The notes beneath the pieces are model-generated. The model saw nothing but the letters and a program-made list of their open reading frames with translations. It was not told the DNA's origin and did no database searches. A stretch of DNA of 64,000 nucleotides. Source: Crossaster papposus (taxonomy: Eukaryota > Echinodermata > Asteroidea > Velatida > Solasteridae). Of the stretch, positions 564 through 58,614 are shown piece after piece. The stretch spans positions 496,001-560,000 of the forward strand of contig JBAIAA010000516.1 of assembly GCA_037893245.1 (NCBI GenBank), written 5' to 3'. Numbering within the stretch: position 1 is the stretch's first letter; each line of letters opens with the position of its first letter. A program made the translations under genes and the position numbers.

Positions 564-828
564 GAGGGGAAAATACCGAGAGAGAAAGTCGAAAGTTGTC
601 AGTGGGCGGGCCCTGCATTCTATAATTGGTCTGATTGCTGTAATGGTAGTTTATGATCAACGAAGCATTACAATTTCCCTCAAATGTGTGTATTACATGA
701 CTATAGGCCTGCAGTCTCTCCTTGCAATTTTTAAGAAGTTTGTGGTTATTAACAGTTAGCTCTGTGGTATTGGATATTTGCATATAACAGTATAAAAAGG
801 CCAGGCAAGTAGTTGTGGTTGTTGACAA
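564..828. other. Unassigned spacer
   Basis: About 265 bp between two MITEs. No gene-like signal was seen. Confidence 0.4.
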
Positions 829-1073
829 CTGGGGCCAATTTCATAGAGCTGCTAAGCACAAAAATTTGCTTAGCATGACAATTTGTCCTTGACAAAAACA
901 AGGTTACAGACCAAATTTTTACCTGATCTTTATTGTTCTGGATTGATAATCAGCTGTTTTTTTGCTTAGCATGAAAAACATGTTTAATTTTGGCCGGAAA
1001 TCTGTTTTAATGAGCAAGACTTTTTGTGCTAAGCAATTTTTGTTGCTTAGCAGCTCTATGAAATTGGGCCCTG
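829..1073. mobile_element. MITE with GGGCCCAATTTC-type terminal inverted repeats
   Basis: The left end reads CTGGGGCCAATTTCATAGAG and the right end is its near-perfect inverse (CTCTATGAAATTGGGCCCTG). The inverted match continues through the GCTGCTAAGC stretch, so each TIR is about 30 bp. The body has further AAGCA/TGCTT repeats. A relative with ends CAGGGCCCAATTTC lies at 42137-42391. CAGGG...CCCTG ends are compatible with hAT-like MITEs, but no clean 8-bp target duplication is visible. Confidence 0.75.
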
Positions 1074-1128
1074 GTGATGGCAAGAGGCTAGCTACATGTA
1101 TCTAACGCCTCTTATCCTGCAATGGCTG

Positions 1129-1350
1129 TATTACGTTTCAGACATTTACAGGCCAAGACTGCATGGGCCAATGTTATAACCTAATTATGTTTCAGACATT
1201 TATGTTTCGGTGATTAGAAAGCTTACGTTTCAGACATTTGAAATGTCTGAAACGTAATCGCTACTTACGTTTCAGACATTTAATATATATTTAATTAGTA
1301 TATTGTTCTTGTTTCAGACATTTTGACACGTAACAATAGCGTTTCAGACA
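1129..1350. repeat. Cluster of GTTTCAGACATT motifs
   Basis: The 12-mer GTTTCAGACATT, usually preceded by TTAC, occurs at least six times here, on both strands. One copy forms the hairpin CAGACATTTGAAATGTCTG near 1230. The cluster recurs at 4870-5040 as part of a segmental duplication. Function unknown. Confidence 0.7.
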
Positions 1351-1452
1351 TTCTTGGTTCACAGAAAAAATAGGACCCCGTTCGAACCCCGTTCGTTTGA
1401 ATTCCTGACCTGTTTGTTTGTGTTCTTTCCTCCATGCCATGGTACATGTACA

Positions 1453-1892
1453 TTAACCCTAACCCTACCTAATGCTACTTTTTACTACTACATGTAGTAG
1501 TAAAAAGTAGTATGCAGTACTCTCACTGACTTGTGTGCAATATGCCTGTAGTAATTTTTAGTATTTGGTACTTCACCCCTTATTGCACTCTCTCTCTCTG
1601 CTTGCTGAGTGTGCATGGCCCATGTATGCTGTGTAAGGTGTTCTAAACTCTACAGCAAAAATTGTCACTTGGGACACATGCATTGGGTCAAGGCTGGACT
1701 ACTGCATTTTTTGCCAGGTAAGTATTACTGACCTGTATTGCCACTATATAGTATTAGTACTTTGTAGTTGGCAGTATCTGTACTCTGTCAGTACACACCC
1801 AATCATCAGTCACAGAGGGACCAATGCTACACTAAGTAGTACTAGTACGCAGTTCTTTAGCCCAAAGTAAGGCCTCAGGGGGTTAGGGTTAA
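1453..1892. mobile_element. TTAA MITE with telomere-like ends, unit 1
   Basis: TTAA (1453-1456), then a 432-bp body beginning CCCTAACCCTACC and ending GGGGGTTAGGG, then TTAA (1889-1892). The ends mimic (TTAGGG)n, but each holds fewer than two full telomere units, so they are terminal inverted repeats rather than an interstitial telomere tract. A subterminal palindrome of TACTACTA/TAGTAGTA type follows the left end. TTAA target plus CCC-starting ends fit piggyBac-like MITEs. Confidence 0.85.
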
Positions 1893-2327
1893 CCCTAACC
1901 CTACCTAATGCTACTTTTTACTACTAGTAGTAAAAAGTAGTATGCAGTACTCTCACTGACTTTTGTGCAATGCCTGTAGTAATTTTTAGTATTGGGTACT
2001 TCACCCCTTATTGCACTCGTAGTACTTTTTAGCATTGGGTACCTCTGCTTGCTGAGTGTGCATTGCCCATGTATGCTGTGTAGACTCTCCAGCAAAAAAT
2101 GTCACTTGGGGCACAATGGGTCAAGGTTGGACTACTGCATTTTTTGCCAGGTAAGTATTACTGACCTGTATTGCTACTATTAGTATTTTGTAGTTGGCAG
2201 TACCTGTACTCTGTCAGTACACACCCAAGCATCAGTCACAGAGAAACCCAATGCTACAAAATACTAAGTAGTATTCTGTAGTAGGCAGTTCTTTAGCCCA
2301 AAGTAAGGCCTAGGGGGTTAGGGTTAA
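1889..2327. mobile_element. TTAA MITE with telomere-like ends, unit 2
   Basis: A second 431-bp copy directly abuts unit 1 and shares its TTAA (1889-1892). It begins CCCTAACCCTACC and ends GGGTTAGGG before TTAA 2324-2327. Both units have the same orientation and high similarity. The duplicated locus at 5136-5147 shows the unoccupied target (TACGTTAAACCACG), so both insertions post-date the duplication. Confidence 0.85.
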
Positions 2328-2609
2328 ACCACGATGTTTGTCTTTCGGATAATACCAGAAAGAAAACAATCACTGGCTGAAATTGTTTTGGTGTTCGGCG
2401 ATTTTCACCATATGATCAAAAGTTTGTATCGTAATATTTTTTCAAATAACCAATAACAATTAACGTTTTGTGGGGTTGCATTTTATCCTTTCTAAAAATA
2501 GGGTTGGTCTGTTATTTTTTGTTTAGCCTTTAACTTGTGACATGTTGAACCCTTTGCATAGGGTTAACATGCATACAGTATTTCTAATCATACATTTTGA
2601 ATATTTCAG

Positions 2610-2720
2610 TAACCTCCTGATCGAAACCCAGACTCGTAGTGTACTTCATTCAGCAGAGATCATCATGTGAACCACAACAAACAGGCTTCTTTGAAGTGCA
2701 GTTCATCAATGAGTACATTG
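2610..2720 (+). other. Exon-like cassette, copy 1
   Basis: 111 nt preceded by TATTTCAG and followed by GTAAGAAC, a plausible acceptor/donor pair. Near the 3' end one frame encodes CEPQQTGFFEVQFINEYIG, shared by all three copies. All frames contain a stop near the 5' side here, so this copy looks non-functional. No protein family recognised. Confidence 0.4.
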
Positions 2721-2761
2721 GTAAGAACGTTTGTACTAAACACTTTGGATAGGTGATTCAT

Positions 2762-3442
2762 AAGGGGCTGTCCAAAGTTGTCAACATTTTTAAGGTCGTA
2801 CAGAGCGTACTACTTTTCAAGACCCCCCTCCCTCCCCCCAAAGTAGTACTTTTCAACATTTAGTCCAAACACCGGTAGAGCGCGGTGGGGCATTGCGTGC
2901 ACGATGTCCATGCACAGCTGTGGGAACGAGTCGCAGTAAAGCTGTGTCAAAGGTTATTCATTCACGCTTGGCACATTCGTGCGCTTATTCAGGGCTAGTA
3001 TATAGGGCATCAATACATGTGTGTATGTACACCGCATGGTTAACGTTGCGCTATACGAAATCATTGCCAACTCGGTCGCCGCGGCGTGTAGGGCGGGCGG
3101 CGTCAAAAGTATCTCATCCTCGCAAGCTACGTACTGTATAGCTAGCCAGGGACGCATCGGATTTTTTTCACGGAGTTGCATAGCTGCTAACAAGGTATAA
3201 CCTGCCGAAGCAATCATTTTTGAACAGCGGACTATTTGTATCGCTTCTGATTTTAACGTTGGAAATTCGAGATAAAAAAAGAAGGAAACAAAACCAATCA
3301 TATAATTTTCCTTTGCTGATTGTACGGTACAAAATCAACATTTTATTTACAATTTAAAGTCGTACGCGGCCTCCGACCCCCCTCCCCCCTGTTGTACGCT
3401 TTGTACGACCATTAAAATGTTGTAAACTTTGGACGGCCCCTT
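2762..3442. mobile_element. DNA transposon remnant with ~50-bp TIRs, copy 1
   Basis: The left end reads AGGGGCTGTCCAAAGTTGTC followed by a GGTCGTACAGAGCGTAC stretch. The right end is its inverse (GTACGCTTTGTACGACC ... CTTTGGACGGCCCCTT). The subterminal region next to each TIR is rich in CCCCTCC. No transposase is readable. Other copies lie at 7459-8431 and its mirror 62968-63940. The target duplication cannot be defined because the flanks were themselves duplicated. Confidence 0.8.
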
Positions 3443-3521
3443 AGTCATGAAGTAACACAGACATTTGTAAGTCACATCCTATAACTACATAAATATTGAA
3501 TATTTTAAAGTGAACAAAGCT

Positions 3522-3593
3522 GGCAGGAGCTGGATTCGAACCTGCGACCTCCAGGTTACCGTACCAGCGCTATACCAACTGAGCTATCTTGCC
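3522..3593 (-). tRNA. tRNA-like sequence (pseudo-tRNA or tRNA-derived SINE head)
   Basis: A 72-nt sequence with a perfect A box (TAGCTCAGTTGG), a perfect B box (GGTTCGAATCC) and a 7-bp acceptor stem with one mismatch. The anticodon arm does not form a normal 5-bp stem with T33, so no anticodon can be assigned with confidence. This points to a tRNA pseudogene or the pol III head of a SINE. No CCA is encoded, as expected in eukaryotes. Confidence 0.6.
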
Positions 3594-4862
3594 GCAATGC
3601 CCTATGAATGAGGCTAGCCTACATGTATGTTGGCGGTCTCCCAAATTGTCAGTATCTTTATTTGGGGGCGCTAGTCAGAAGTCATAAACACAAGAATGAC
3701 GTATGTGACCTGTTGCCCGGAAGTGGGCGTAAAGTTGCAAAATTTCAAAATCAAGACTATGGTATTTCCTGAAAGTACAGGTTGCAAGCTTTAATTATAG
3801 ATACATTGTGTGTTGTGTATCATACAACCAACAAACTTTGGTTTGGGTCACATGGTGAGAAAACAATTGGGTCGGTCGGTCAGCATGACATTTTTTTTTT
3901 TTTAATTTTTTTTTAGGTTTAAATATATGTTAGTATTAGTATTATTATTATTATTATTTTAGGAACCATACCTGGGCTTGAAGTAAACGACGGCCACGAC
4001 GGCCATTGCCGTTGTTGCCTTTTTGATGGCCGAGGTGCCCCACTAAAAATTGCCGTCTTCACGGCCAGTTTTGCCTTGCCCAATTTTTACCTTGGCCGTC
4101 GTGCCCTTTTTTGCAAAAACATCCTTCAGCCTAATGTTAGTATTCTAATCACTGAATCATTGTTCTAGAAAAAAATATCGCTGCATACGTTACGTATCGC
4201 GCACGCAGCAACGTTAACGACACAAACTGAATCTAGCTTCGCAATCAGGCCCCATAAATATAGCGCACGCTATGTACTGTACATGTTTGTATGTACAGCC
4301 AAGTCCAGCTAATTTCGGAGTATGCCGATACTTCTAGCTGCGACACCCCGCCGCAACACACGTACCAGCAGGAGTAAGTACGGCAGATCGTACTTGCAAA
4401 GTCAACTGACTTTCTTTTTCTCAGTGCTACTGTACACGTGACGCGCAGTGCACAATACGAATGCGTGTTTGTGTTCGTGTACGTGTACGTGTACGAGGCA
4501 AACGATAGTCGTTACAATCACCCCAACCTCGTTACCATGGCTATGATCTTGCTGCGCTATTTTTTCCCACCATGCCTTCGCGATAACGCGCACACGCTCA
4601 TATGGAGTCGAGGCTGCGATCACCCTGCATGCGGCTGGTGCTCCAATATTGTCAACAGGTTTTTGATGAAGTTATCCCTCTGCTAAATGAACGGCATTGA
4701 ATTTGTTAGGAAGAAAATCAGAAAAATCAACAATGCCGGGCAAGGATCGCGTAAAGCGAACAGCCTAAAATTTCAATATGATTTTCCACACACCCCAGGG
4801 AGTTAAGGTTGCATTGCAGATATAGTGCATGCAGCTGGAGCGTAAGATTTCTTTTTCTCATT
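3594..4862. other. Non-genic DNA with GGCCGT-rich repeat patch
   Basis: No gene recognised. Positions about 3985-4110 carry repeated GGCCGTCGTGCC/ACGGCC motifs on both strands, likely a degraded element. Positions 3890-3960 hold T-rich and ATT simple sequence, and 4470-4490 has CGTGTACGTGTACG. Confidence 0.4.
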
Positions 4863-5541
4863 TTATAACCTAATTATATGTTTCAGAAATTTTGAGGTTT
4901 GGAAATGTCTAAATAATTCGGTGATTAGGAAGCTTACGTTTTAGACATTTGAAATGTCTGAAACGTAATCGCTATGTCTGAAACGTATATTGTTCATGTT
5001 TCAGATATTTTGACACGTAACAATAGCGTTTCAGACATTCTTGGTTCACAGAAAAAATAGGACCCCGTTCGAACCTCGTTCGTTCGAATTCTTGACCTGT
5101 TTGTCCGTGTTCTTTCCTCCATGCCATGGTACATGTACGTTAAACCACGATGTTTGTCTTTCGGATAATACCAGAAAGAAAACAATCACTGGCTGAAATT
5201 GTTTTGGTGTTCGGCGATTTTCACCAATATGATCGAAAGTTTGTATCGTAATAATATTTTTTCCAATAACCAATAACACTTAACATTTTGTGGGGTCGCA
5301 TTTTATCCTTTCTAAAAATAGGGTTGGTCTGGTATTTTTTGTTTAGCCTTTAACTTGTGACATGTTGAACCCTTTGCATAGGGTTAACATGCATACAGTA
5401 TTTCTAATCATACATTTTGAATATTTGCAGTAACCTCCTGATCGAGACCCAGACTCGTAGTGTACTTCATTCAGCAGAGATCATCATGTGAACCACAACA
5501 AACAGGCTTCTTTGAAGTGCAGTTCATCAATGAGTACATTG
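4863..5541 (+). repeat. Segmental duplication, copy B (empty site)
   Basis: Near-identical to copy A at 1190-2720 but without the tandem telomere-like MITEs. The single TTAA at 5140-5143 is the empty target. It ends with the second exon-like cassette. Confidence 0.85.
5431..5541 (+). other. Exon-like cassette, copy 2
   Basis: 111 nt bounded by TATTTGCAG and GTAAGGGAG, nearly identical to copy 1. The open frame encoding CEPQQTGFFEVQFINEYIG remains, but the 5' part has stops in every frame. Probably a duplicated pseudo-exon. Confidence 0.4.
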
Positions 5542-5849
5542 GTAAGGGAGCTTACCAATTCGTCCTTACCTTGATTCTGCGGAAAGTCCGCCGTTGTCAA
5601 GGGGGCAGGAAAGTTTGCGAACTGCACGCACGTGCGCACCCCAGCGCATCGAAGTTAATAAGCTAGCCCAATCGGGCGCTAATGTTGCTGAGAAATTTCA
5701 ACTCATGAATAAACACAAGACGCGGATAACATTTAAATACCACGTTCTGTTCGCGGACTGAACGCGTTCAAACCTTGTTTGTTGAATCGAAGCGGTGAGG
5801 CCTGTTTATACTCGGCATTTAAATACCACGTTCTGTCCGCGTACTGAAC

Positions 5850-6650
5850 GTGTTCAAAACCTTGCTTGTTGAACATCTTCTTGAGATTAACAGGCAAAAA
5901 TGTGCTCTTTGTTTTTGAAAAATGTTTACATTCGCCGAGGTCTATGGCGAAAACTGCTGTCATTTTTAAACAATGCATATACACGTACGACACGACGGTC
6001 ACTGACGCAGGAAAACGTGGTGCCGCGGTATATGCATGCCGGCGCGCGTGCCCGATAGACTTGACAGTATAGATTGGCCACACCCGACATATACAAATAT
6101 TAAGTGGCTCAGAGTGGAATATTAATCCCATTTCACGATTAAATGCCACTCAATATTTGTTTTATATAACCGAGATACAGATCCTCGTCATTTGATCTTA
6201 AACAGATCCTTGCACTTTTCCGAACTACCCCTTCACAAAAATGTTTTAATCCAGCTCTGTAGCGCTGTGCGCATCAAGGATGATCCTAGCCGTTGAATAG
6301 TATTTCCCATTCCCTATGGGCGAATGGGACTTTTTGAGCACCGGCATTAATGGGAGAAATGAATGTCCTGTGATGTGAGTTCCACCAATCAAGGATCTGT
6401 ATGCCAGTTATATAAACATAAATGTACGGTGATATACACATCACGAGCACCACACACAAAAACAACCATTTCTGACTATCAGTGCGGATATGCATGCATG
6501 CAATACAGTATGTCGACAAATTCTCCATTGTTGCTGTGCTAAGGCGATGTTGGCCGCGTTCGAACTTGGCTATATACGTCTGGAAATCACACACGTGGCC
6601 AAGTAAGCAGATGTAGCAACTAACTTTGTGTGTTATTCTCAATGTTATTC
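5850..6650 (-). pseudogene. Coding-like relic homologous to 54985-55375
   Basis: Read on the minus strand, 6605-6486 matches 54985-55110, and 5965-5870 matches 55268-55365. The second block keeps a peptide containing FSKTKSTFLPVNLK in both loci, one locus interrupted by a stop. Shared peptide-level conservation suggests an old gene or transposon ORF fragment. I do not recognise the family. The two copies are in inverted orientation about 49 kb apart and are not part of the large inverted repeat. Confidence 0.4.
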
Positions 6651-7258
6651 TTCCATTTAGTAGCAAAGAATTCACAAACGGTACCTTTGCTTTGAGAAAA
6701 TTGATGAGCTTGTCTCAATTAAGTGCAGCCAAGAGGGCATGCACGCAATCGTGTTCTGGGAAGGAACGGGAGAATGCGTAACGTTACGTTAATTCTCTTT
6801 TGGCATTCCACTTTTTCCATGGGAAATATATTATGGCCACTAGTCAATGTCGATAACATTGTTTGCAGTCGCCGATTATGATCGAAAATCGCTATGGTAC
6901 AATTAAGTATTTTAAACTCAAACTAATACAATTGTATAAAGTCGCATTTTATGGCTTTCGGAGATAGGGTCTGTCCGGTGACCCGAACCAAAGGTATTTT
7001 TTGTTTGTCCTCATCAGAGTTTTGACCATTGTTTTAAAAAATGAAGTTAAAAGTTGTTGATCTGTTAAAACAAATTCAGTTAAAAAACTTTGGGATATGA
7101 CAGAACAGTTTTCAAATAGAAAGTTGTTAAAATCCCAAAATTGACTTTTCAGTTAAAATTATTGTTATTCTTGTAACTCGGAAGAGCCATAGTGCGACTT
7201 TACGCTTATTTTGTGTTGTCAGGTCAAATGTAACTACATAGATATTGATTATTTGCAG
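6651..7258. other. Diverged relative of the duplicated segment
   Basis: From about 6840 the sequence weakly follows segmental copies A/B (GTCGCATTTTAT, TATTTTTTGTTTG blocks) up to the third exon-like cassette. No gene seen before it. Confidence 0.4.
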
Positions 7259-7392
7259 TAACCTCCTGAGACCCACAATCATGCTTCGTTCTCGGAGATC
7301 ATGTGAACCACTACAACAGGCTTCAAAACCATGCATCAGAGGCACAGACAGTGGCGGCTTCTTTGAAGTGCAGTTCATCAATGAGTACATTG
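7259..7392 (+). other. Exon-like cassette, copy 3
   Basis: 134 nt after ATTTGCAG and before GTAAGAACC. One frame is open throughout and ends in GFFEVQFINEYIG, making it the only copy without a stop. A 23-nt difference against copies 1/2 sits in the centre (TGCATCAGAGGCACAGACAG region). If any copy is a functional exon it is this one. Family not recognised. The mirror copy in arm 2 would lie just beyond 64000. Confidence 0.4.
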
Positions 7393-7458
7393 GTAAGAAC
7401 CTTTTTACTAAATTATCAGCATGATTAAAAAGTCTTGGTTTAATTTTTGCTAATGTTT

Positions 7459-8431
7459 AGGGGCCGTCCAAAGTTGTCAACATTTTTAAGGTCGTACAGA
7501 GCGTACTACTTTTCAAGACCCCCTTCCCTCCCCCCAAAGTACGGTAGTACTTTTCAACATTGTATTTTTTCAATGTTGATGCACATGTTTTATCATCATT
7601 TTACATTTTTCATGTTGCTGATGATCAATGCAAGTTAAAAACAAAAGCAGATGAACATTTAATTTTGTCAAAAACAATGTACTCATAGTACTTGCTGTAT
7701 AGTTTATTTTAAACATACATGTACAATGCTAAAAGCATGGCTGGTCTCTGGACTGCAACGATCGGACTGCAACAAGTACCGGTACAGTGCGACGCCATGA
7801 TCATCGGCAGTGACAACCTCGTCCCAAGTGTACAAACTCCAAACACCGGTAGAGCGCGGTGGGGCATGGCGTGCACCATGTCCATGCACAGCTGTGGGAA
7901 CGATTCGCAGTACAGTCGTGTCAAAGGTTTATTCATTCACACTTGGCACCTTCGCGCTCTATTCAGGGTGTTGATATACTGTACATGTACGTCATTTACA
8001 TGTACATGTACAGTAACACACTTGTGGGATTCGTCCATGCGCGCACGTATGTGTACACCTTGTGGTTAACGTTGCGCTATACGAAATCATTGCCAACTCG
8101 GCCGCTGTGGCGTGTAGGGCGGGCGGCGTCAAAAGTATCCTATCCTCGCGCCAGCTACGCTAGGGACGCATCAGGTTTTTTTTCTCGGAGTTGCACAATA
8201 GCTGTAAACAAGGTATACCTGCTGAAGCAATCCTTTTAGAACAGCGGACTTTGTATCGCTTCTGATTAAAAAAACCAAACCTCAAATGATATAATTTTCC
8301 TTTGCTGATTGTACGATACAAAATCAACATTTTATTCAGCATTTAAAGTCGTACGCGGCCTCCGACCCCCCTCCCCCGTGTCGTACGCTTTGTACGACCA
8401 TTAAAATGTTCACAACTTTGGACGACCCCTT
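7459..8431. mobile_element. DNA transposon remnant with ~50-bp TIRs, copy 2
   Basis: Same family as 2762-3442 and longer (973 bp). The ends AGGGGCCGTCCAAAGTTGTC and GGACGACCCCT are inverted. It follows exon-like cassette 3 just as copy 1 follows cassette 1, so the element was in place before that segment was duplicated. Confidence 0.8.
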
Positions 8432-8690
8432 AGTCATGCTTCCGATTACATGCCTTTCAAAAGGTTGCTGCGGCACATCTCGTGCTTTAAATGTTTCCAT
8501 TTACGCTACGAAAGCCATCAAATATTGCCTCAAAAAGTGATAAAAACTTGCCTTAATTAATGTCAAAAATGTTTACAGTCAATCATTCTTTTAACAAGAA
8601 TGGAGAATTTAGGTCGTGAACAGTGCTATGCACAACGCCTAGCCCCGAGTTTGAGGTGCGGCGGTAAGCGTGCGTGATGAGTTTTTGAAA
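8432..8690 (+). repeat. Fragment of unclassified interspersed repeat
   Basis: Matches 10620-10820 and, inverted, 49470-49600 (shared TTAATTAATGTC, GGAGAATTTAGGTCGTG and GCACAACGC blocks). Part of the dispersed family best seen at 48900-49600. Confidence 0.6.
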
Positions 8691-9010
8691 ATAATAGTGT
8701 ATAACTTCTACATGTACATGCTTTCACAGATTTTGATAAAACTTGGATGCAGTGACCCTTGGGTCGGAAGACACATTTCCTCATTGGGTTACAGAGGTCA
8801 AAGGTCATGAAGGGGTCATTAGATGTCATTGCTCAAACATACCGGTACTTCAAATGTTTCTTTGTACATGTATACAGAATTTGATGGATTTTAATGTAAC
8901 TTGGATGGAGTGATCCTTGGGTGGGGTTCATCAAAACTCCTTTGAAATAGGAGGTCAAAGGTAATCAAGGGGTCATTTGAGGTCATTGAAAAATGCACAA
9001 AATTTGACTT
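8691..9010. repeat. Tandem dimer, ~190-bp unit, with AGGTCAAAGGT motifs
   Basis: Two diverged units share ACTTGGATG.AGTGA.CCTTGGGT, AGGTCAAAGGT and AAGGGGTCATT, about 170-190 bp apart. AGGTCAAAGGTCA in unit 1 is a perfect direct repeat of two nuclear-receptor half sites spaced by one base; regulatory meaning is not implied. The mirror copy lies at about 62390-62710. Confidence 0.6.
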
Positions 9011-9439
9011 TTTAAAGAAAACTAAACATAGGGATCGACCGCGGGGAAAAGGCGACACTCGCGACTCAGGGGATCACTTGTATAGTGATACTGACCTTTA
9101 TAAAGATTTGTGTTCATAGATGAAAATGAAAAACTGTCTCAGGTATGTATGCTTTTTGCTGGTTTTGATTTTCTTAGGTCGATCGAGGAACATTTGCTCA
9201 GAAGAATTTCAAAAAAGCCAATTTCTTGCTGGAATATCGGGGAGAACTGATAACTCATACTAAAAGGGGAACAGTGGCAGGACACATACCCAGACGAAAA
9301 GGGATCGTTTCTCTTCTTCTTGTTCAAGACTAGCGGTGTTTCACTGTGATAAGTTGCTTCTGATCATAATGAACTCAAAGTTACCTGCGCTTAATATGCT
9401 GTAACCCTCTCAATTTTCACTAATGGGCAATTCCACGAT

Positions 9440-9880
9440 TACGTTACGTTTTTAGCCATTTAGCACAGCTCTTTGGGCTCCCATATCCAGATGTATGCTT
9501 AGGCTAAACAAAAGAAATGGTGTGTTTACGGTAACGGCTTGAAAAAAATACAGGTAGGTACGCAGGGAAATATTTTAATTTTGTCTTTTCTTTTCCATTT
9601 TAGTTGTGTTTTAAGTGTGGAAAATGATTGTTTGTGACAAATAATTGAAACTAGTATTTATCTACAATTATCAACTAGCAAAACAGCAATAACAAGTTTG
9701 AGGTTGGCAATTGGGCCACCAAAAATCCAGGGTTAGTGTAAACACACCATTTTTCTTTTGGCCTCATCAATTCTTCATTTTATCATTAATAAATTTTATT
9801 AAAATAAATAAATAAAATAAATAATTAAAATCATTTAGACATGTTTTGCGAGTTGATATGGGAACTTGAGTGTTCGTTAG
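9440..9880. mobile_element. Hairpin-forming MITE-like element
   Basis: The inverted pair AAAAGAAATGGTGTGTTTAC (9508) / GTAAACACACCATTTTTCTTT (about 9739-9759), and an outer pair CTCCCATATC / GATATGGGAAC, define a foldback of roughly 400 bp. Ends are diffuse and no target duplication is visible. The mirror copy in arm 2 carries an 8-base tandem insertion beside the inner repeat. Confidence 0.5.
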
Positions 9881-9884
9881 GCCA

Positions 9885-10315
9885 ACAAAAAATAGTTCTG
9901 CTTCCGGTTACCCAACCGACCATAATTTAAGGCTGCGACCCTAAAGTTTTTATCGGCAAGTTAAAAAATAATAATAATAACCATTAAAACATTTTTTTTT
10001 AAATTAACAAAAATGTCTTTTCTGTCTTTACAAAATGCTTTTCAACTACCCATTTACGTCAAAAAACGGTCGTACTTTTTTTTGCCTACTTACATTCGCT
10101 ATTTTCTGAGATTCCCTATCACTTTCTCTTCGCAATGACAACGCGTTGCGTGATTCCCTATCAGTATCACGGTGATGAAAACACGTGCATAATGCTCAAT
10201 GCAGCAATGCTGTAATGGTCCCCCCCGCACCGCCCACTAAAAGTGCCAAAGAAGGCAGGATGGAGTCTATGCATACACGGCCGACCAACAGGAAACGGGC
10301 AGATAAAAAGAACAC
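9885..10315 (+). repeat. Unclassified interspersed repeat, forward fragment
   Basis: Closely matches 48905-49255: TTCTGCTTCCGGTTACCC, GCTGCGACCCTAAA, AACACGTGCATAATGCTC and AAGTGCCAAAGAAGGCAGG blocks. No protein evident. Confidence 0.7.
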
Positions 10316-10599
10316 GTGTTTGAATCTATGATAAAGCCAGAATCATTGAATGGACATTGTGGGGTTCCAGACGCTTTTTTTTTGGTTAAGAACAAATCAC
10401 GCTGCGAACTATGGAATTCCGTACGATTTCGACATTCTTAAGGGCAGAGTGTTGGTTTGATGAAACAATGAGTCTGTCGTCAATTGTACACAAAGGATAA
10501 AATGCCTTGAGCACGCTAATGATACGTACACCACCATACGTAGTTGGCAGAATTAACTCAATCCAAAAGGAAGTACGGTGAAAACGTTTGTAGCAAGTA

Positions 10600-11400
10600 G
10601 CATGCTGCGAGCCTCGCGGTGTGAGTTGCCGCGGCATATGTCGCGCTTCAAATGTTGACATTGATTTACGCTACATGTACGAAAGCCATTAAAACAATTG
10701 CCACAAAAAGTGATAAAAACTTGCCTTAATTAATGTCAACTATTTACTGTCGATAATTCTTTAAAATAATGGAGAATTTAGGTCGTGCACACCACTATGC
10801 ACAACGCTACCCACAAAGGGAAACTTGCCAACACTGTCCGTCTGTAGTGTGTGAAGCACTGTGTGGCAGGCGACGAACCTCGCGTTGCGGCAGAAAATGT
10901 CGGGGAAACATGCTGCGCTATCATTTCAAGTACAAGCGATACAACCTCATCATAATTCATGAACACAGAAAACACATACACAGTTGAGAGATCAAGTTTT
11001 GTGAATTAACTTGCAGAAATATTCGTTCTCCATCGATGTTTATTCGGCATTTAGATTGACCTAGAACTGCAGTGTTACGATGTTAATCGGCCATGCATGT
11101 ACATGTACATGTATAGACTGATTGTCGCATACATCATGCCTTCTTTGGCGCGGCAGGGACCAGTACAGCGTTACTACATTGAGCGTTACGCACATGTTTT
11201 CATCACCATGACTGGGAATTGTGCACCACGAAGGGAACTTGTAATCGCGAAGGGATCTTCTAAAACCAACAGAGGTTTCTTCTCAGAAAATAGCGAACGT
11301 AAGTGGGCCGACAAATTAGAAGCGTTTTGACATAAATAAGTATAGTTGAGAGTCATTTCGTGAAGACGGAAAAGACACAAACCGACACAAACTTTAGGGC
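10600..11400 (-). repeat. Unclassified interspersed repeat, inverted copy
   Basis: Read on the minus strand from 11400 to 10600, this follows the same order as 48950-49600 (GCTATTTTCTGAGAAGAAAC, AACATCGATGGAGAA, TTCATGAATT, GACCTAAATTCTCCATT). It stands inverted to 9885-10315. Confidence 0.7.
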
Positions 11401-12062
11401 CGCATCAAATATGCTTGCAAATGGGACTGGTGGGAGAAGGAAGTGGATGGAGTTCCTCTTGCAAAAGCTATAGGAAAGCTTAATGGACCATGCATGGCAT
11501 ATTTCTGGGTATGCAAGAACTTCAAGGAGATGACGTGGATAGCGCTGGACGATAATATCGTCACGATACGATACCGAAGACGATATAGACAGTATCGTCT
11601 TTGGTTTTTTGCATCCAATCTTAACATTTTGTCTCTTGTCTTTAAAAAAAAGGTTGTTATTTACATACATTTTTATCATCTAATGACAAAAATTGTATTG
11701 AAAATGAAAAAACAGTCCCCTAAAAAATGGCCGTTGACGTACCAATGCTGCACGTGGAGATCGTGCACAAATACACAAACGACGTTAACAAATACCTCCC
11801 CTAAAAAGGGCAACATTAATCGATACATTTTTGAAAATTCTTCTTCGAACCCACACAGTTTTTTCTATGAATACGTTAAAAAAGGATGTATACGTAGCAG
11901 TGATATACTGAATTTTTTGAAAAATCTGTCTGCCGGCCCCAATTCAACCTCCGCAAAATACGCACAGGCTAGCCCCGGGAAAAGGTCCCAAGGATGTGAC
12001 ATGAGGCAGTTATTTACCGAACTGTTAGAAATTCCACCAAGTTCGGCAAGCCTACATCCAAG
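11401..12062. other. Unassigned DNA inside arm 1
   Basis: No recognisable gene. Positions 11548-11605 are rich in short TATCGTC/GACGATA inverted words. A 212-codon open frame spans 11443-12081 but runs into the minisatellite and has no recognisable domain. Confidence 0.4.
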
Positions 12063-12776
12063 CACAGCCAAGTGCACCTGAGCTGGCAAAAGCCCATCCA
12101 AGCTCACACCAAGTCCATCTGAGCTGGCAAAAGCCCATCCAAGCTCGCACCAAGTCCATCTGAGCTGGCAAAAGCCCACCCAAGCTCACACCAAATCCAC
12201 CTGAGCTGGCAAAAGCCCATCCAAGCTCACACCAAATCCACCTGAGCTGGCAAAAGCCCACCCAAGCTCGCACCAAATCCACCTGAGCTGGCAAAAGCCC
12301 ATCCAAGCTCGCACCAAGTCCACCTGAGCTGGCAAAAGCCCATCCAAGCTCGCACCAAGTGTACCTGAGCTGGCAAAAGCCCATCCAAGCTCACACCAGG
12401 ACTAACCAAGTCAACTCGAGCTGGCAAAAGCCCATCCAAGCACACACACCAAGTCCAAGCAGTCGTGAACCACATAACGACCGAGGATCGATATTGTGTT
12501 TTCCTTTGTTCCTTTACTATACCCTAACCCCATTACTTATCGCTTGCCCCAACGATCGAGGACCGAGTTCGGACAAGCAAACCGTCCTTCGAGGATCCTT
12601 TGTTCCCTTTGTTCTTTTTTGTGTTTCGATCCTCGATCGTAATACGATACAAGAACACCTGAGCTGGCAAAAGCCCATCCAAGCTCACACCAAGTCCACC
12701 TGAGCTGGCAAAAGCCCATCCAAGCTCACACCAGGACTAACCAAGTCAACTCGAGCTGGCAAAAGCCCATCCAAGC
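12063..12776 (+). repeat. 41-bp minisatellite (arm 1)
   Basis: Unit of 41 bp containing GAGCTGGCAAAAGCCCATCC, about 12 copies with variants (CACACC/CGCACC, ATCC/ACCC). Interrupted at about 12460-12655 by unrelated sequence with two GATCGAGGA-type blocks. Because 41 is not a multiple of 3, open frames across the array are artefacts. Inverse copy at 58615-59330. Confidence 0.93.
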
Positions 12777-12791
12777 TCATCACATAATTAC

Positions 12792-12979
12792 TACCGTAAT
12801 TTCCTGCGGTAAAGCCGCACGGCGGTTAAGGCGCAGGTCCCTAAAATCACCCAAATAAATTTCAAACGTCAACAGATAAAGCGCACCGCCGAATAAAGCG
12901 CATGCTTGAACGCACCCAAAAGAACACCAGACGCCACCCGGTGTAGGTACATCGCCAGAAAGGGGTCATTTTGTTGCCT
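12792..12979. mobile_element. Truncated end of TACCGTAATT-type TIR element
   Basis: The terminal 188 bp of the element that is complete at 57594-58599, starting TACCGTAATTTCCTGCGG. Here it is cut at 12979, exactly where arm homology ends and the foldback pair begins. Confidence 0.85.
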
Positions 12980-12983
12980 GTCG

Positions 12984-13195
12984 GTCACTTCGCCCATTTT
13001 CCACTTCGCCCATAACCACTTCGCCCACAACCACTTCGCCCATTTACCACTTCGCCCACTTACCACTTCGCCTACGCGCCACTTCGCCCACTTACCACTT
13101 CGCCCACGCACCACTTCGCCCACGCGCCACTTCGCCCATTTACCACTTCGCCCATCCACCACTTCGCCCATCCACCACTTCGCCCATCCATTATT
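12984..13195. repeat. Outer foldback minisatellite terminus, element A
   Basis: About 13 tandem 15-16-bp units with the core CACTTCGCCCA. The terminal order of variants (ATTTTC, ATAAC, ACAAC, ATTTAC) is repeated at all four element ends, which confirms that these are true termini. Confidence 0.88.
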
Positions 13196-14280
13196 TCTTT
13201 AGAAGTAACAAGTTAGTATAGGGTCAGATCAGTCGGCCAAAAAAAAATGAGAAAAATGCATTCCCGACCTGTATAAATTTAATGATGACCTACGCAGCTT
13301 AATGGTTACGTCTTCAAGTCAAGAAACCACAGGTTACTTTTGAAGTCCCTTTTTTGGCCGCCAGTGGAGACCCACGGGCGTTTTGCAAGTGCCATTGACA
13401 ACTTGAGTAACAACGCGCCGGATTTCGGCGATTCAAAGAGGGCGGTCGTTCCTGTGTGGAATGCTTGACGCGTGGTGGTATGGTGCAGTGGCAGCTGTCG
13501 CTCGCTTTCACTGGAAATATCAGCTGTGATTAGACAATAGTTCATTAAGGGCGGGGAGGATGTTTCAATAAGACGAATGGGGGTGTATGTTTGTTTGTTT
13601 GGTATACATCATACATGTAGTTGTTTGTCAAGCTGCCAGGTCTGTTTATATAATGCTTAACTGCTTTACTTCTACTTCTTGCCTGTCTAACATGCAGATC
13701 CAAATCTGTAGATTTTAATTTACCGTTTACCAATCCTGCTATCAAACTTAATAAATAGTACCAAGTTATGGAAAGTTGTAGCTTGTAGCTGCTTGTCTGC
13801 ATTATTTGTCTCTGTAACAATCTTGTTTCATTATTGAATTGGCGAACATTATTGAATTGGCGAACTTTATTTCCACACGGCCTATATTCAAGGAAAGTCA
13901 CGCTATCACTTCACACTAATGGTGAATTCTAACTTCATCAAAATTTACACAGGATAGAAGCGCAGTGCTAATTGGTAGAAGAATAGTATACATGTATAAA
14001 CAAGTCGACGAATGAGAAATAAACGCTTTTATATTTGAAACGGATCGTTTGATTTTATGAACTTCATGCAAAAAATGGGAGACTCGTATTTAGGAATTTG
14101 GCTGCCAAAACGCGTTACTAGCTTGGTAGGCTTACTTGGTTGATTTCCTCCTAAAAACATTATCTTTTGATCTTGGCATTCGCCAAGAAAACAGATTTTA
14201 AAAACCTTTATTGCTTTAGTGAATACATTGCAGAATAGTAATAATCCTGTTATGTCTTTTATTGAAACATTCCCAAATGT
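13196..14280. mobile_element. Internal region of foldback element A
   Basis: About 1085 bp, mirrored at 14710-15794 in element B. It contains a 118-codon open frame (13545-13901, minus), identical in its mirror copy, and a 79-codon frame (13306-13545). Neither has recognisable transposase motifs. Confidence 0.75.
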
Positions 14281-14614
14281 AAGTGGGCGAAGTGGCAAAT
14301 GGGCGAAGTGGCAAATGGGCGAAGTGGTAAATGGGCGAAGTGGTTGTGGGCGAAGTGGTTATGGGCGAAGTGGAAAATGGGCGAAGTGACAGTCACTTCG
14401 CCCATTTTCCACTTCGCCCATAACCACTTCGCCCACAACCACTTCGCCCATTTGCCACTTCGCCCATTTGCCACTTCGCCCACTTACCACTTTGCCTACG
14501 CGCCACTTCGCCCACTTACCACTTCGCCCACTTACCACTTCGCCCACTTACCACTTCGCCCACGCGCCACTTCGCCCACGCGCCACTTCGCCCATTTACC
14601 ACTTCGCCCACGCA
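14281..14614. repeat. Abutting inner minisatellite termini of the foldback pair
   Basis: Units read GGGCGAAGTGG up to 14390 and CACTTCGCCC from 14392, with A at 14391 as the only separating base. This gives a perfect local palindrome of about 150 bp. The element B side has more units than the A side, so the arrays are asymmetric. Confidence 0.88.
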
Positions 14615-14709
14615 TAGCACGCCCGTGTTAATTCGACAGGTCGTTGCATGCTTGAGGCGGCAGGGGGGACCGTTTGTTGGGTGGGCCCGGCCCGGCCCGC
14701 CCTAAACGA
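14615..14709. other. Non-palindromic insert in foldback element B
   Basis: About 95 bp of GC-rich sequence (GGGCCCGGCCCGGCCCGCCC) with no counterpart in element A. It is the main asymmetry of the palindrome. Confidence 0.7.
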
Positions 14710-16006
14710 TACATTTGGGAATGTTTCAATAAAAGACATAACAGGATTATTACTATTCTGCAATGTATTCACTAAGCAATAAAGGTTTTTAAAATCTGTT
14801 TTCTTGGCGAATGCCAAGATCAAAAGATAATGTTTTTAGGAGGAAATCAACCAAGTAAGCCTACCAAGCTAGTAACGCGTTTTGGCAGCCAAATTCCTAA
14901 ATACGAGTCTCCCATTTTTTGCATGAAGTTCATAAAATCAAACGATCCGTTTCAAATATAAAAGCGTTTATTTCTCATATGTCGACTTGTTTATACATGT
15001 ATACTATTCTTCTACCAATTAGCACTGCGCTTCTATCCTGTGTAAATTTTGATGAAGTTAGAATTCACCATTAGTGTGAAGTGATAGCGTGACTTTCCTT
15101 GAATATAGGCCGTGTGGAAATAAAGTTCGCCAATTCAATAATGTTCGCCAATTCAATAATGAAACAAGATTGTTACAGAGACAAATAATGCAGACAAGCA
15201 GCTACAAGCTACAACTTTCCATAACTTGGTACTATTTATTAAGTTTGATAGCAGGATTGGTAAACGGTAAATTAAAATCTACAGATTTGGATCTGCATGT
15301 TAGACAGGCAAGAAGTAGAAGTAAAGCAGTTAAGCATTATATAAACAGACCTGGCAGCTTGACAAACAACTACATGTATGATGTATACCAAACAAACAAA
15401 CATACACCCCCATTCGTCTTATTGAAACATCCTCCCCGCCCTTAATGAACTATTGTCTAATCACAGCTGATATTTCCAGTGAAAGCGAGCGACAGCTGCC
15501 ACTGCACCATACCACCACGCGTCAAACATTCCACACAGGAACGACCGCCCTCTTTGAATCGCCGAAATCCGGCGCGTTGTTACTCAAGTTGTCAATGGCA
15601 CTTGCAAAACGCCCGTGGGTCTCCACTGGCGGCCAAAAAAGGGACTTCAAAAGTAACCTGTGGTTTCTTGACTTGAAGACGTAACCATTAAGCTGCGTAG
15701 GTCATCATTAAATTTATACAGGTCGGGAATGCATTTTTCTCATTTTTTTTTGGCCGACTGATCTGACCCTATACTAACTTGTTACTTCTAAAGAAATAAT
15801 GGATGGGCGAAGTGGTGGATGGGCGAAGTGGTAAATGGGCGAAGTGGCGCGTGGGCGAAGTGGTGCGTGGGCGAAGTGGTAAGTGGGCGAAGTGGCGCGT
15901 AGGCGAAGTGGTGAGTGGGCGAAGTGGTAAGTGGGCGAAGTGGTAAATGGCCGAAGTGGTTGTGGGCGAAGTGGTTATGGGCGAAGTGGAAAATGGGCGA
16001 AGTGAC
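14710..16006. mobile_element. Internal region and outer terminus of foldback element B
   Basis: Inverse copy of 12984-14280, with its minisatellite terminus at about 15800-16006. Differences from A are rare, for example at the mirror of 13460 and near 14975. Confidence 0.85.
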
Positions 16007-16013
16007 CGACAGG

Positions 16014-16467
16014 CGTATATACGTCATCTATGTGGAACTACACCCAGGGCCGGGGACATTGTATGCGATAATAATACAAATATTTGCAAGCCCAGCTGAA
16101 AAGCACCCTTTCAAATATTGTAAAGGAGACTAAGGAACAATAGTTTAACAATTTAAACGTCAAGAAATTACTAGACGCAGCTGATAATCCTCGGCTGTAT
16201 AAATTCAACGGAAACAATGGAACTAGGGTGTCGAATAGGCCTAATCACTAAAGTGTGATACCACAATATAGCACGTCCACGAAGCATGCTTGGCAACATT
16301 GACATATACTCATGTGCACCGCGTGTATGCATACATGTTGTGTATACCCATCCTCCGCAGCGCTAGCGGGTAGCTTTTGGCGTAAATACACTTCAACTGC
16401 AACAACCAAGAAAACCTTGGCAGCGTATATACACGTCCTCCGCGGAATTAAACTGCTGTGCCCGACG
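16014..16467. repeat. 5' flank of LINE: interspersed repeat related to 44157-44470
   Basis: From about 16098 it matches 44157-44470 (GACGCAGCTGATAATCC, GAATAGGCCTAATCACT, CTCAACTGCAACAA blocks). The 3' half of the same repeat resumes after the LINE at 21501-21627. The LINE is therefore inserted in an older repeat. Confidence 0.75.
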
Positions 16468-16494
16468 AGTTTTCTATCAAAACTCGACACTAAG

Positions 16495-18330
16495 ATGCAG
16501 GATATCGTGTCTAAATTCCAAGTGTCGCCGCCTATGTCATTGCGGTCAGTGCTAAGTAGTGATTTTACCATTGATGAATTGTTACAAGCGAGGATTGTGA
16601 TTTTTGAAGCTGCGATGGAGAAGTACCGTGAAGACGTCCAAGATGGCGACGAAACGGGCGACTCGTCAAAAAAGCTAAGTACAGTTTTTTCACTTAAATC
16701 CCGTAGATCTAATCAAACAGCATCCGATGACATCAAGGACCTATGTCTGTATATTTTTGGTCATCGGAACACTTTTCCCATGTCTTGTCTTAGTTCAGCT
16801 TGTCAGATAAATTACAAGCAAACAATTACTACAGATCGGGACTTAACAGGTGTCACAACCCCCGATCAAGTCCCCGAACCCACCCCACAGGTCATTTATC
16901 AAGCCATCATACAGGTCAAAAATGACATAAAATTACTTGATCAGAAATTTTCAGACCAATTTGCAACACTATCTGACCAGATTTCTCGATCTTCTTGTTC
17001 CCAAAGGGAAACAATAGACCACCTGAAGAAGGAATGTGACGCTCTCCATTCTACCATTGATATGCTGATGAGTCCTTCTCGTGAAGCCCATGATGATTCA
17101 GAACGCCCGCCGAGTGCTCTGAGCCGGAACCACCCATGGACGCCCACAAGTCTAGCCAGTCCAGCGAGCCACCGTACAGCGGATCTCAGTCCAGCGAGCC
17201 ACTGTACATTGGATGTCGGCCCAGCGGTTCTGGTACCGACAAGCAACCGCTTCGCTGCATTGGCGACAGAGGATCCCGTCATCACCGACTCCAGCACCGG
17301 TGATTCCCGGACCGAGGCCGAGTTGGTGATCGACACGTACTTCGAAGTCTTGCAGCTAAACGGCCAGCCTGACACCGAGGAGCAGGGATCCTCCCCAACC
17401 CCAAACCATTTGCCCCATCCCTCAAAAACTAAAATGTCCTTAGCATTTGACGAGCAGCTGAATCAATACCGGAAAAAGCACAAGAAGCTGACCACTGCAA
17501 AGGACAAACCGGCACCTAAAGTAAAACAATCACCAACGGAACACCACTGTGCAGATGTGCTTCTAATCGGTGACTCGATGATAAAACGGCTTCAGCCCAG
17601 GAGATTGAGCAGGCAAAAGAAAGTGATGTGCCACACCATGCGTGGAGCAAAAATCCAAGATCTTGCTCCCCACGTCATACAGCTGTCGACCAAGCACGAC
17701 GTATCTCGGGTAATTCTCCATGTTGGGACCAACAACACATCCGACAACCCGGAGACTATTGCCGCTCAGATCACCTCCCTCGGCGAGTCACTACAACCAA
17801 GATCAGTGACAATATCTTCGATCATACACCGTAAAAACCAAACGGTGCCACAGTGCAAGAGAGTAGATGATTCCAATAATCTGCTCAAGTCCATAGCAAA
17901 GCGAAATAACTGGGGCTTCATTGACAACGGTAACATAAACTCAAACCACCTTGTGTCGGACGGTGTGCACCTCGACTCGGCAGGAGTGCGCCTACTTGCC
18001 ACGAACATTATCCAACACATCAAAGGACCACCAAAGACCTTTGATAGTCGCATTCCACATCAGAAAACCCCTTTCGGTCAGAGTTTGTACTCTGATGTCC
18101 TGACGAAGCGGACTACAGCGACCCGTGATGTTCCGACGGGTTTTCTAATGGCCAACCAGTATTACCCGCATCCCCATCAGAAACGGCACCAAATCAACCT
18201 CAATCAACGACGGCAGCCAGTATCCCAGACCAGAGCACCCGCCCCGACACATTATCGAGGCCAGGAGTGGAACCAACATCTGAAAATGGTCAGGGAGCTG
18301 CTCAACCCACAAGGCAAGGTTCTAAAATAG
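16495..18330 (+). CDS. LINE ORF1 protein with SGNH/GDSL esterase domain
   Basis: 611 codons from the ATG at 16495. The reading frame extends upstream to 16312, but that part lies in the older flanking repeat, so the later ATG is chosen. About residues 128-192 form a charged, heptad-like helix (VKNDIKLLDQKF...), a likely coiled coil for multimerisation. Residues around 355-500 form an SGNH hydrolase: GDSM near 359 (block I serine), HVGTNN near 410 (block III) and DGVHLDSAG near 489 (block V Asp/His). CR1-type ORF1 proteins carry such esterase domains, thought to support RNP or membrane association. The C-terminal tail is basic and Pro/Gln-rich. It overlaps ORF2 by 64 nt in another frame, suggesting reinitiation or coupling. 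The frame is intact. Confidence 0.88.
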   Translation: MQDIVSKFQVSPPMSLRSVLSSDFTIDELLQARIVIFEAAMEKYREDVQDGDETGDSSKKLSTVFSLKSRRSNQTASDDIKDLCLYIFGHRNTFPMSCLSSACQINYKQTITTDRDLTGVTTPDQVPEPTPQVIYQAIIQVKNDIKLLDQKFSDQFATLSDQISRSSCSQRETIDHLKKECDALHSTIDMLMSPSREAHDDSERPPSALSRNHPWTPTSLASPASHRTADLSPASHCTLDVGPAVLVPTSNRFAALATEDPVITDSSTGDSRTEAELVIDTYFEVLQLNGQPDTEEQGSSPTPNHLPHPSKTKMSLAFDEQLNQYRKKHKKLTTAKDKPAPKVKQSPTEHHCADVLLIGDSMIKRLQPRRLSRQKKVMCHTMRGAKIQDLAPHVIQLSTKHDVSRVILHVGTNNTSDNPETIAAQITSLGESLQPRSVTISSIIHRKNQTVPQCKRVDDSNNLLKSIAKRNNWGFIDNGNINSNHLVSDGVHLDSAGVRLLATNIIQHIKGPPKTFDSRIPHQKTPFGQSLYSDVLTKRTTATRDVPTGFLMANQYYPHPHQKRHQINLNQRRQPVSQTRAPAPTHYRGQEWNQHLKMVRELLNPQGKVLK

Positions 18331-21188
18331 ACATAACAGATGGTATTATCTGCAATCAAAGTTCCGAGGGTTTCTCATTCGCCCATCTTAATGTAAGAAG
18401 CCTCATAAACAAATTTGACCATTTTAAGATTGTAATGTCTAAAAATCCATTCGACATCATCTGTCTAAACGAAACTTTTTGCGACGCCTCAATCTCTGAT
18501 GACGAAATAACTCTACCAAATTATTCTATTGTCAGAAAAGACAGGAACCGACATGGTGGCGGTGTTGCAATTTACATTCGAGATACCCTAATGTTCTCTC
18601 GTCGTGAAGATCTCGAAATATATGATGTCGAGTGTATATGGGTTGAAATTAAGTGAAAACAAAGACAGCCTGTGCTTATCAGTTCTATTTATAGGCCTCC
18701 TTCAAGCTCTGTCGAATTTATGGGAAAACTGAGTGATATCCTTAATAAGGCCTCGTGTGAATGTAAAGAAATTATTACAACTGGGGACTTTAATTGTGAT
18801 GTTTCAGATGAATACGATAGTATGCAATCAAATCCAATTATTTCTTGCTTTAGTTCGTTCCAAATGGCGCAACTCATACATGACCCAACACGTGTCACTG
18901 AATCTACTAAAACTACCATCGATCTCATTTTTAGTTCCCACCCAGAGCTCATAAAGGACTGTGGTGTTTTACCAGTCCTAATCAGTGATCATTATCTTGT
19001 TTATGGGCTACACAGTTGGAAAACACCAAAAATGAAAGGTCGTTCAATAAATTTTCGATGTCTAAAAAATATAGACAGTGATGCATTTACGGACGATCTC
19101 CGTAATGCACCATGGCAAGATGTTTTTGGTTGTTATGATGTGGATAATGCATGGTCTATATGGTACTCCATATTTATGAGTATTATTAACCTCCATGCGC
19201 CAGTCAAAACCAAACGCATTCGGGGTGCCTCAGTTCCGTGGCTCGATAGCGAAATTCTTAAACTTATGCGGCAGCGCGATCGTTTACACAAAATTGCAAA
19301 GCACACAGGCTTACAAATTCATTGGGATTCATACAAAAACCTGCGGAACAATGTTACTAATAAAATCCGCAGTAAAAAGAGTAATTACTACACATCCGCC
19401 ATAGAAGAAAATAAAAGCAACTCTTCTATGCTGTGGAAAACTCTGAAGGAGGTACTCCCTAAGAAACAAAAAACTGTACCAAATTCGATTACTTCCCCAA
19501 ATGGGGAAAATATTGACAATATCGCCGACATTGCTGATACATTAAATGAACACTTTTCAACAATCGGCAAGCGTACTGCTGGAAATTACCCTTTGCGTGA
19601 ACTTGAAATAGATGACAATACTGACGCCTCTATATTTGATTCTGTTGATGAAGATTGCGTAGTACCTAACATTACAGAAGAGTTTGTTCGAAAGCAAATA
19701 TCATCTATGTCGGTTGGGAAAGCAACAGGTCCGGATGGAATTAGTGTTAAAATGATTAAAATTGCTTCACCTTATATCATTAAATCTTTAACTCATATTG
19801 TTAACCTGTCTATAAGATGTGAGCGATACCCTAAAGATTGGAAACATGCTTTAGTAACACCAATTCACAAGGGAGGAGATAAATGTAGTACAGGTAACTA
19901 TCGTCCAATTTCTATACTGCCAATTATCTCTAAGATTTTAGAAAGATGGGTGCACTCATCGGTATATAGATATCTTGATGAAAACAATCTGATTCCTAGT
20001 TGCCAGTCGGGATTTAGACCCCTGCACTCAACTGAAAGCACCCTACATGACTTAACAAACAAGTGTTTTGCGGCCATGGAGAATGGACAAGTTACAGGCA
20101 GTGTGTTTATAGACCTCAGTAAAGCATTTGATTGTGTTGATCATGAAATCTTACTAAAGAAACTAGAAAGGATGAACGTGTCATCTTCTGTAACAAATTG
20201 GTTTAAGTCGTACCTAAGTGAACGTAGTCAGTCTGTGAATATTGGCGGCACCATATCAAAGGTCCTGTCCGTAAACACTGGTGTTCCACAGGGGTCGATA
20301 CTAGGTCCACTTTTATTCATTGTTTATACTAGTGACCTTCCATTTTGTATTGCCCCAAACTGCAACTTATTTATGTATGCAGATGACTCAACATTAACGT
20401 GTAGCTCCTCCAACATTAATATAATAGAAAGTAGCTTAAATACAGCTCTTACTAGTTTTCACAACTGGTGCGGAAGAAACAAGCTAGCTTTAAATGCCAC
20501 CAAAACCAAATGCATGCTTATTGGTACTAGGCAGAAAATATCTAATGTTAATTTAAATGTATGCATTGCTGGTAGTCGTATTGAAAATGTGAAGTCATAT
20601 AAATGTTTGGGTGTAATTATTGATGAAGCATTAAGTTGGGGCCCACATGTCGAATACGTAAGAAAAAATGTGGTGTCTAAATTAGGTATAAGAAGAATCC
20701 GTGATTGTATTCCTCAGCACAGCTTGCACACACTATTTGTAAGTCTAATTATGCCAACATTAGAGTATTGTTGTACTGTGTGGGGAGGAAGGTACATATC
20801 TCACGATAATATTTTAAACAAATGTCTCAAAAGAGCCGCGCGGATAATCCTTAAATGTACCTTCCTCACCCCTTCAGAGGATATGTTTGCTCGTCTTAAT
20901 TGGACCCCTTTTTCAAAAAGAGTCAAGTCAAAAAAGGCTATTCTTGTCTTCAAAAGTATCAACAAAATGACTCCTTTGTACATGACAAATATTTTCAAAC
21001 CACTTACAGTAATTCGCGAAACAAGGCAATCAACCCACACGGCACTGAAAGTTCCTTTCGCCAAAAAAGAATGCTACGCCACAAGTTTCGCTGTGAGTGG
21101 TGCAAATATTTGGAATAATCTGCCCGAACAATTGCGAACATTGGACTCAGTAAGCACATTTAAATCAGAACTCCGACATGCCATCTGA
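18267..21188 (+). pseudogene. LINE ORF2: AP endonuclease-reverse transcriptase with one stop
   Basis: One frame runs from ATG 18267 to the stop at 21188, interrupted only by TGA at 18654-18656 (codon 130). Endonuclease motifs before the stop: HLNVRSL, LNETF and GGGVAIYIR. After it: IYRPPSS, TGDFNCD and SDHYLV, so the domain is complete in sequence but split. Reverse transcriptase motifs: KATGPDGIS, NYRPISILP, FIDLSKAFDCVDHE, GVPQGSILGPLLF, YADDSTL (catalytic YADD at 20375-20386) and KCLGVIIDE. In target-primed reverse transcription the endonuclease nicks DNA and the RT copies the LINE RNA. A single nonsense change in a frame of about 970 codons implies recent inactivation, or an error or polymorphism. 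Confidence 0.9.
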
Positions 21189-21500
21189 GTGTTAGATATT
21201 ATGCCAATTGCGCTGATCTACGGAGTTAGAACTTGGTTGCCACTATAATGTGGAGCCGGATAGGAATTTCCCCTTCTTATTTTTCACCTAAAAAGGTTTT
21301 TTTATTTGGCGGGTTTTCGCCTATCTCGTAAATCAGAGTTAGTATTAATGTTTAGAATTCCTGTAATATCCTTGTATTTATAATATGTACTGTTATTTTA
21401 TTTGATGATGTATGCAGGGCCCCAATGAAAACCAGTTTTAAACTGTTTGGGCACACCCTGGGTAAAGAAATGGAATAAATAAATAAATAAATAAATAAAA
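21189..21500 (+). other. LINE 3' UTR and AATA tail
   Basis: Contains GGGCCCCAATGAAAACCAG and GGGCACACCCTGGGTAAAG, followed by GGAATAAATAAATAAATAAA. The short tandem AATA tail is of the type generated by CR1/L2 elements rather than a long poly(A). Confidence 0.75.
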
Positions 21501-58599: not shown

Positions 58600-58614
58600 G
58601 TAATTATGTGATGA

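Follow-up and report, generated by a model that had tools for sequence, protein, structure and literature searches.

How does a long inverted duplication come to end exactly at the terminus of a transposable element? This question is raised by a stretch of 64,000 nucleotides of Crossaster papposus DNA (C516:496001-560000, hereafter the window), which we compared with the 1.02-Gb genome in 1,841 contigs. Counts of junctions, copies and states come from the assembled contigs of one genome, and genome match counts are lower bounds, with 40 candidates scored per query. The long inverted duplication proposed in the first-pass annotation is confirmed. The inner part of arm 1 occupies 1..12979 (+) and that of arm 2 58412..64000 (-), and between 7399-12979 and the reverse complement of 58412-64000 (5,581 and 5,589 bp) there are 9 substitutions and one 8-bp indel. 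Both arms run on beyond the window, arm 1 from near C516:486393 and arm 2 to about C516:579396. The full arms in the contig (C516:486393-508979 and 554412-579396) measure about 22.6 kb, an extent given by a match chain that contains internal indels and array differences. The outer arm ends (C516:484899-490070 and 574024-580113; L012, L013, L015, L016) lie in a 29-bp repeat, AACCCTAGCTCCATTCATTTACACGGCCC, arranged in blocks of alternating orientation, which may represent a second foldback-like family. Immediately outside the left outer arm end there is a 72-bp array, which has an exact tandem copy of 2,160 bp.

On the inner side, arm 2 enters a complete TIR element, E (about 57594..58599, -), with TACCGTAATTTCCTGCGGTAAAG at both ends. 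The same element is interrupted in arm 1, where by reading only its outer 188 bp are kept (12792..12979, +), as had been noted before. The last bases of this stub, GCCT (12976-12979), are the first bases of the adjoining foldback element A and equally the next bases of intact E. Intact E reads TTTTGTTG followed by CCTTAGAACG; at the arm-1 junction TTTTGTTG is followed by CCTGTCG. The right-hand E had been taken for the intact state, and this view holds: E is intact in all five other units read letter by letter, and at least 14 whole copies at ~100% are found in the genome. The inner part of E alone was not found at ~100% among 42 matches (best 40 of 2,177 candidates scored); the single inner-part match, on C354, reaches 89% and belongs to a broken dispersed copy.

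Foldback A (12976..14390, +) and foldback B (14392..16014, -) stand head to head and are 98.4% identical over 1,306 bp, with 3 substitutions and 1 indel outside their 16-bp arrays (~1,091 bp). Where these elements end can be judged from one insertion, on C637, in which a direct repeat of 9-10 bp, CATCGGGTC(G), lies outside (G)CCTGTCG and TGTAAAA(C). On this basis we call the two termini g and t, respectively. The flanks of the C637 insertion match neither the window nor the examined pieces of C516, and of all places read it is the only one flanked by sequence foreign to the amplified block described below. Because of its target duplication, we place the terminus of the foldback element at 12976 or 12977, where (G)CCTGTCG begins, and since GCCT is element sequence, arm 1 ends at the element terminus and not four bases short of it. 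Thus, the first-pass annotation was right to place the breakpoint at a foldback terminus, but the terminus is not the GTCAC at 12984, four bases past the arm. The outer g terminus of A is followed by 16-bp arrays, and its t terminus, TGTAAAAC, was lost when the inner (t) ends of A and B were fused (GTGACAGTCAC). The fusion point (14388..14393, unstranded) reads GTG[AC]AGTCAC; it joins A without TGTAAAAC to B without GTTTT through a 2-bp overlap and forms the centre of a near-perfect hairpin, which folds at -137 kcal/mol (DNA), while 200 shuffles average -34. The head-to-head pair described earlier is real, but it is not a plain pair. An ordinary, pre-existing inverted pair as substrate of the rearrangement is not borne out, because the fusion of the inner termini is itself a rearrangement product; in all likelihood A/B represents a product or an intermediate rather than an ordinary substrate.

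The two ends of B match each other inverted (91% over 204 bp) and tandem 16-bp subrepeats are present, while the outermost 7-8 bases are unlike at the two ends. The foldback interior holds no ORF of 170 aa or longer. Pattern searches of viral and prokaryote contigs gave no confirmed match (one gave 7 unconfirmed pattern matches), the LINE search gave no match, and the literature matches listed for the foldback repeat unit include nothing related. The family yields 215 first-look candidates, and the best 40, which were scored, are ~100% identical, so that similarity cannot tell whether A copies B. An argument deriving A from B by inverted copying, built on 8 shared flanking bases (chance 4.2e-5), was rejected, since these bases are element sequence according to C637. 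The scenario based on it, a palindrome that had undergone a 42-kb deletion with 4 bp of microhomology, was dropped along with it. Dating of A/B against the arms (3/1091 versus 9/5581 substitutions, Fisher p = 0.43) was also dropped, because other copies, C637 included, match A as well as B does.

The first-pass annotation had asked what position 16014 adjoins. It is B's own g terminus, and beyond it lies the same flank at all 23 places read, the window included (GTATATACGTCATC, 16015..16028, unstranded). This terminus adjoins CGTATATAC at these 23 places, and in B it is followed by CGTATATACGTCATC and then a LINE; the other g ends read are those of the arm junction (10 loci, 9 places) and of C637. 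CGTATATAC is probably the original donor flank. The LINE, an apparently full-length non-LTR retrotransposon (16029..21499, +), has an 8-bp target duplication, ACGTCATC (16021-16028 and 21502-21509), and is older than the amplification, because its start comes after the g junction in the copies read far enough. Its ORF1 shows a weak GDSL-lipase-like match below the Pfam cutoff, and its ORF2 is broken by an in-frame stop (18654-18656). Among 120 listed homologues of this LINE the best matches at 97%, and a single named animal occurs, Mactra antiquata (36%). Away from the arm junction 18 t ends were read. Seventeen join window position 52464 (52464..52466, unstranded), which is uninterrupted in the window itself, and one (C576) joins unrelated sequence. 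Fourteen of these 18 elements were read on the g side too; all 14 carry CGTATATAC there, which never matches the t-side flank, and a matching target duplication is found in 0 of 14. A variant flank, TGGCATGTTTGGCATGAG, with a 9-base near-repeat occurs at 3 of the 17 elements joining 52464 (L045, L057, L064), possibly the footprint of an earlier insertion or excision. On C199 the order, according to the ends of the stretches read, is arm, A.B, 16015 onwards, up to 52464, element, 16015 onwards again, and E; this is a tandem duplication with the element at its junction. Both the junction of E with g and that of 52464 with t lie at the termini defined by C637, and the rearrangement junctions that were read coincide with an element terminus or fall no more than a few bases from it. 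Neither an intact donor, with CGTATATAC on both sides of one element, nor a reciprocal transposition product was found among the loci examined.

The junction is present in many copies. With the arm 1/A junction as query, 40 matches were scored, and at least 21 of these, the window included, span the junction. The outer-arm probe has at least 28 matches (98-100% over at least 1,285 of 1,500 bases), and a probe outside the right arm has at least 21 at ~100%, nearly all of them on contigs carrying arms or junctions (the exception is C37). An ORF that by eye resembles a pogo/Tigger-like DDE transposase (L016:2443-2982) adjoins this amplified outer flank. Three of five spacings between right-flank probe matches are close to 260 kb (259,444 bases on C153, 259,189 on C18 and 260,104 on C791); the remaining two are 305,759 (C582) and 454,416 bases (C18). 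The amplified block is heterogeneous, as its parts are present in unequal numbers (21 junctions, 21 outer flanks and 14 whole copies of E). Depending on the copy, the right outer-flank probe adjoins either the junction-side or the E-side arm, and the original arms were thus probably longer. A giant transposon with 22-kb TIRs was considered and rejected, because the repetition extends beyond the right arm. Likewise, a giant composite of the Ising type would place the unit at independent sites with unrelated flanks; instead, the right flank is repeated at 21 places.

At the 21 junction places the fused centre is kept in 12 and altered in 9. In two of the 12 (C791:318k and C18:3727k) neither inner end is deleted. 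The altered centres comprise four with the centre deleted (GTGACAGTTTGCC), one with a deletion from A into the LINE (C18:3454k) and four with a single element at the junction (C107, C1382, C765 and C18:4182k, the last assigned from its family match and L108, its far end unread). It looks as if the palindrome was made once and then altered differently among the copies. The suggestion that this locus shows a recent event is not in line with a junction shared by 21 places and a fused centre altered in several ways.

We consider it quite possible, and tentatively favour the view, that alternative transposition by the foldback element made these duplications. It is favoured because one donor end is fixed, the other end has a variety of partners and matching target duplications are absent, and because the homology of the arms stops at the g terminus. 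Alternative-end transposition, the first idea of the annotation, is thus the best fit, with the donor end constant and the other end joined to several partners. From the junction sequences, the copy numbers (as lower bounds) and the centre states that we observe, we infer a transposase reaction, the involvement of a sister chromatid and an order of events. A non-autonomous foldback element would have resided at the 16015 site with its g terminus toward 16015, and a transposase would have acted on termini of different chromatids or of fused copies rather than on the two ends of one element. In one reaction an outer g terminus would have gone into the E of the sister chromatid, at a distance of about 42 kb, and the outer part of E with everything beyond it would have been joined in mirror image to the donor, giving the order arm 1 with the E stub, g, A, t.t, B, g, 16015 onwards, E and arm 2. 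In another reaction, the t terminus may have joined 52464, duplicating about 36 kb in tandem. End joining of two element termini with a 2-bp overlap would account for the t.t fusion. The block would later have been amplified about twentyfold, and the central palindrome altered independently in several copies. Against alternative transposition stand the failure to find an intact donor or a reciprocal product among the loci examined and the two like (g) termini on which the inverted product, in the form drawn, depends. In known alternative transposition unlike ends are used.

A history of ordinary insertions followed by a deletion could leave much the same structure, and we regard it as possible, if somewhat unlikely. 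In this case, the inverted duplication would have pre-existed with E whole in both arms, A would have inserted into E of arm 1 and B at 16015, and the intervening DNA would have been lost while A and B were fused by end joining, placing the true duplication breakpoint in the lost DNA. Both exact g junctions then become ordinary insertions and the t.t fusion a single deletion, and the few bases trimmed at each inner end are typical of end joining. However, both ends of the deletion must fall within a few bases of two termini. An ordinary insertion of A in E would carry the 9-bp duplication ATTTTGTTG on the t side. That the inner part of E is not found alone at ~100% is a weak point against this history, which does not require such a copy. 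Ectopic (non-allelic) recombination between foldback copies would also yield tandem and inverted duplications, and the near-identity of the 40 scored foldback copies, out of 215 candidates, is in line with it. The single elements at the junction even look like TIR-TIR recombinants, C1382 and C107 with g ends on both sides, C765 and C18:4182k with the orientation of B beside the stub. Yet recombination needs more elements inserted at 52464 and in E, and position 52464 of the window is empty; it leaves the fusion of the inner termini unexplained, and recombination of the Galileo type would have to be combined with further insertions to place the junction precisely at a terminus. We judge it improbable.

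Template switching or fold-back priming with GCCT microhomology, independent of any transposase, appears highly improbable. GCCT is indeed common to both sides of the arm junction, and PMC3907307 and PMC10766186 describe palindromes from such events with short microhomology and subsequent deletions in the arms; however, GCCT belongs to the element, and junctions at or near termini are not what random switching predicts. The absence of a matching target duplication in all 14 elements away from the arm junction that were read on both sides fits alternative transposition better than either recombination or template switching. Finally, fold-back reads, which according to PMC12870357 create near-perfect palindrome centres like that of A/B, or joined haplotypes might have produced the structure during assembly. 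We find such an artefact extremely improbable: the structure occurs at 21 places, several on one contig and with the centre in differing states, and the arms are non-identical.

Sea-urchin TU elements presumably resemble the foldback family of A and B. Drosophila FB and Tetris elements have long terminal inverted repeats with tandem subrepeats and no evident coding capacity, as found here, and the target duplication of 8-10 bp given for Tetris in PMC4079207 compares with 9-10 bp on C637. Unlike the named foldback elements, the family described here has a 16-bp unit and outermost 7-8 bases that are unequal at the two ends. For maize Ac/Ds, PMC3744419 reports that reversed-ends transposition gives duplications starting precisely at the transposon with a one-sided target duplication, that NAHR, BIR and FoSTeS do not predict these, and that inverted duplications are possible from sister chromatid transposition; PMC4270019 deals with composite insertions in which the internal joins are consistent with end joining. 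The present case shares with Ac/Ds the duplications from an exact terminus, the one-sided target duplication, the tandem and inverted products and the end-joined internal joins, but it concerns a foldback family, comes with natural multi-copy evidence only, shows no intact donor or reciprocal product among the loci examined and has two like ends in the inverted product. Foldback-like or inverted-repeat structures are also found at animal rearrangement breakpoints, as in Galileo and in Anopheles gambiae 2Rj, for which alternative transposition was weighed beside homologous recombination (PMC4168063 and PMC1952172). Those cases are inversions, whereas here inverted and tandem duplications have one donor end in common. 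Ising TE of Drosophila consists of large segments bounded by foldback elements (PMC6431247), as here; in contrast to Ising, sequence lying outside the right arm is amplified as well and the copies cluster on contigs, a pattern better explained by segmental amplification than by transposition of a whole unit.

Well documented in maize, alternative transposition is not easily recognised in nature because its products decay. Here a single genome contains three partners for one donor end, a palindrome of fused ends both undeleted and altered, and a later amplification. On this basis natural copies would show the order of steps, from end fusion through duplication and amplification to palindrome decay, and foldback elements would be tied directly to segmental duplication. 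Among the literature matches listed, in which subscription journals are thinly covered, none deals with foldback-family alternative transposition making duplications. A broader proposal, which we hold to be rather unlikely, is that one foldback insertion served as a natural duplication engine, its single fixed donor terminus giving rise through alternative transposition to two duplications, one inverted and one tandem, and to a third join, with the resulting palindrome seeding an amplification to about 20 copies and the fused-end intermediate left without inner deletions in two of them. The 42-kb spacer between the arms also contains large minisatellite arrays with 41-bp and 36-bp units (22617-23244, 24176-25033, 35296-36021, 37142-37426 and 38298-38752). 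Two short, exon-like coiled-coil stretches, at 21950-22180 (-) of the window and at L018:9163-9567 (-), are alike by eye and possibly belong to a host gene in the amplified block.
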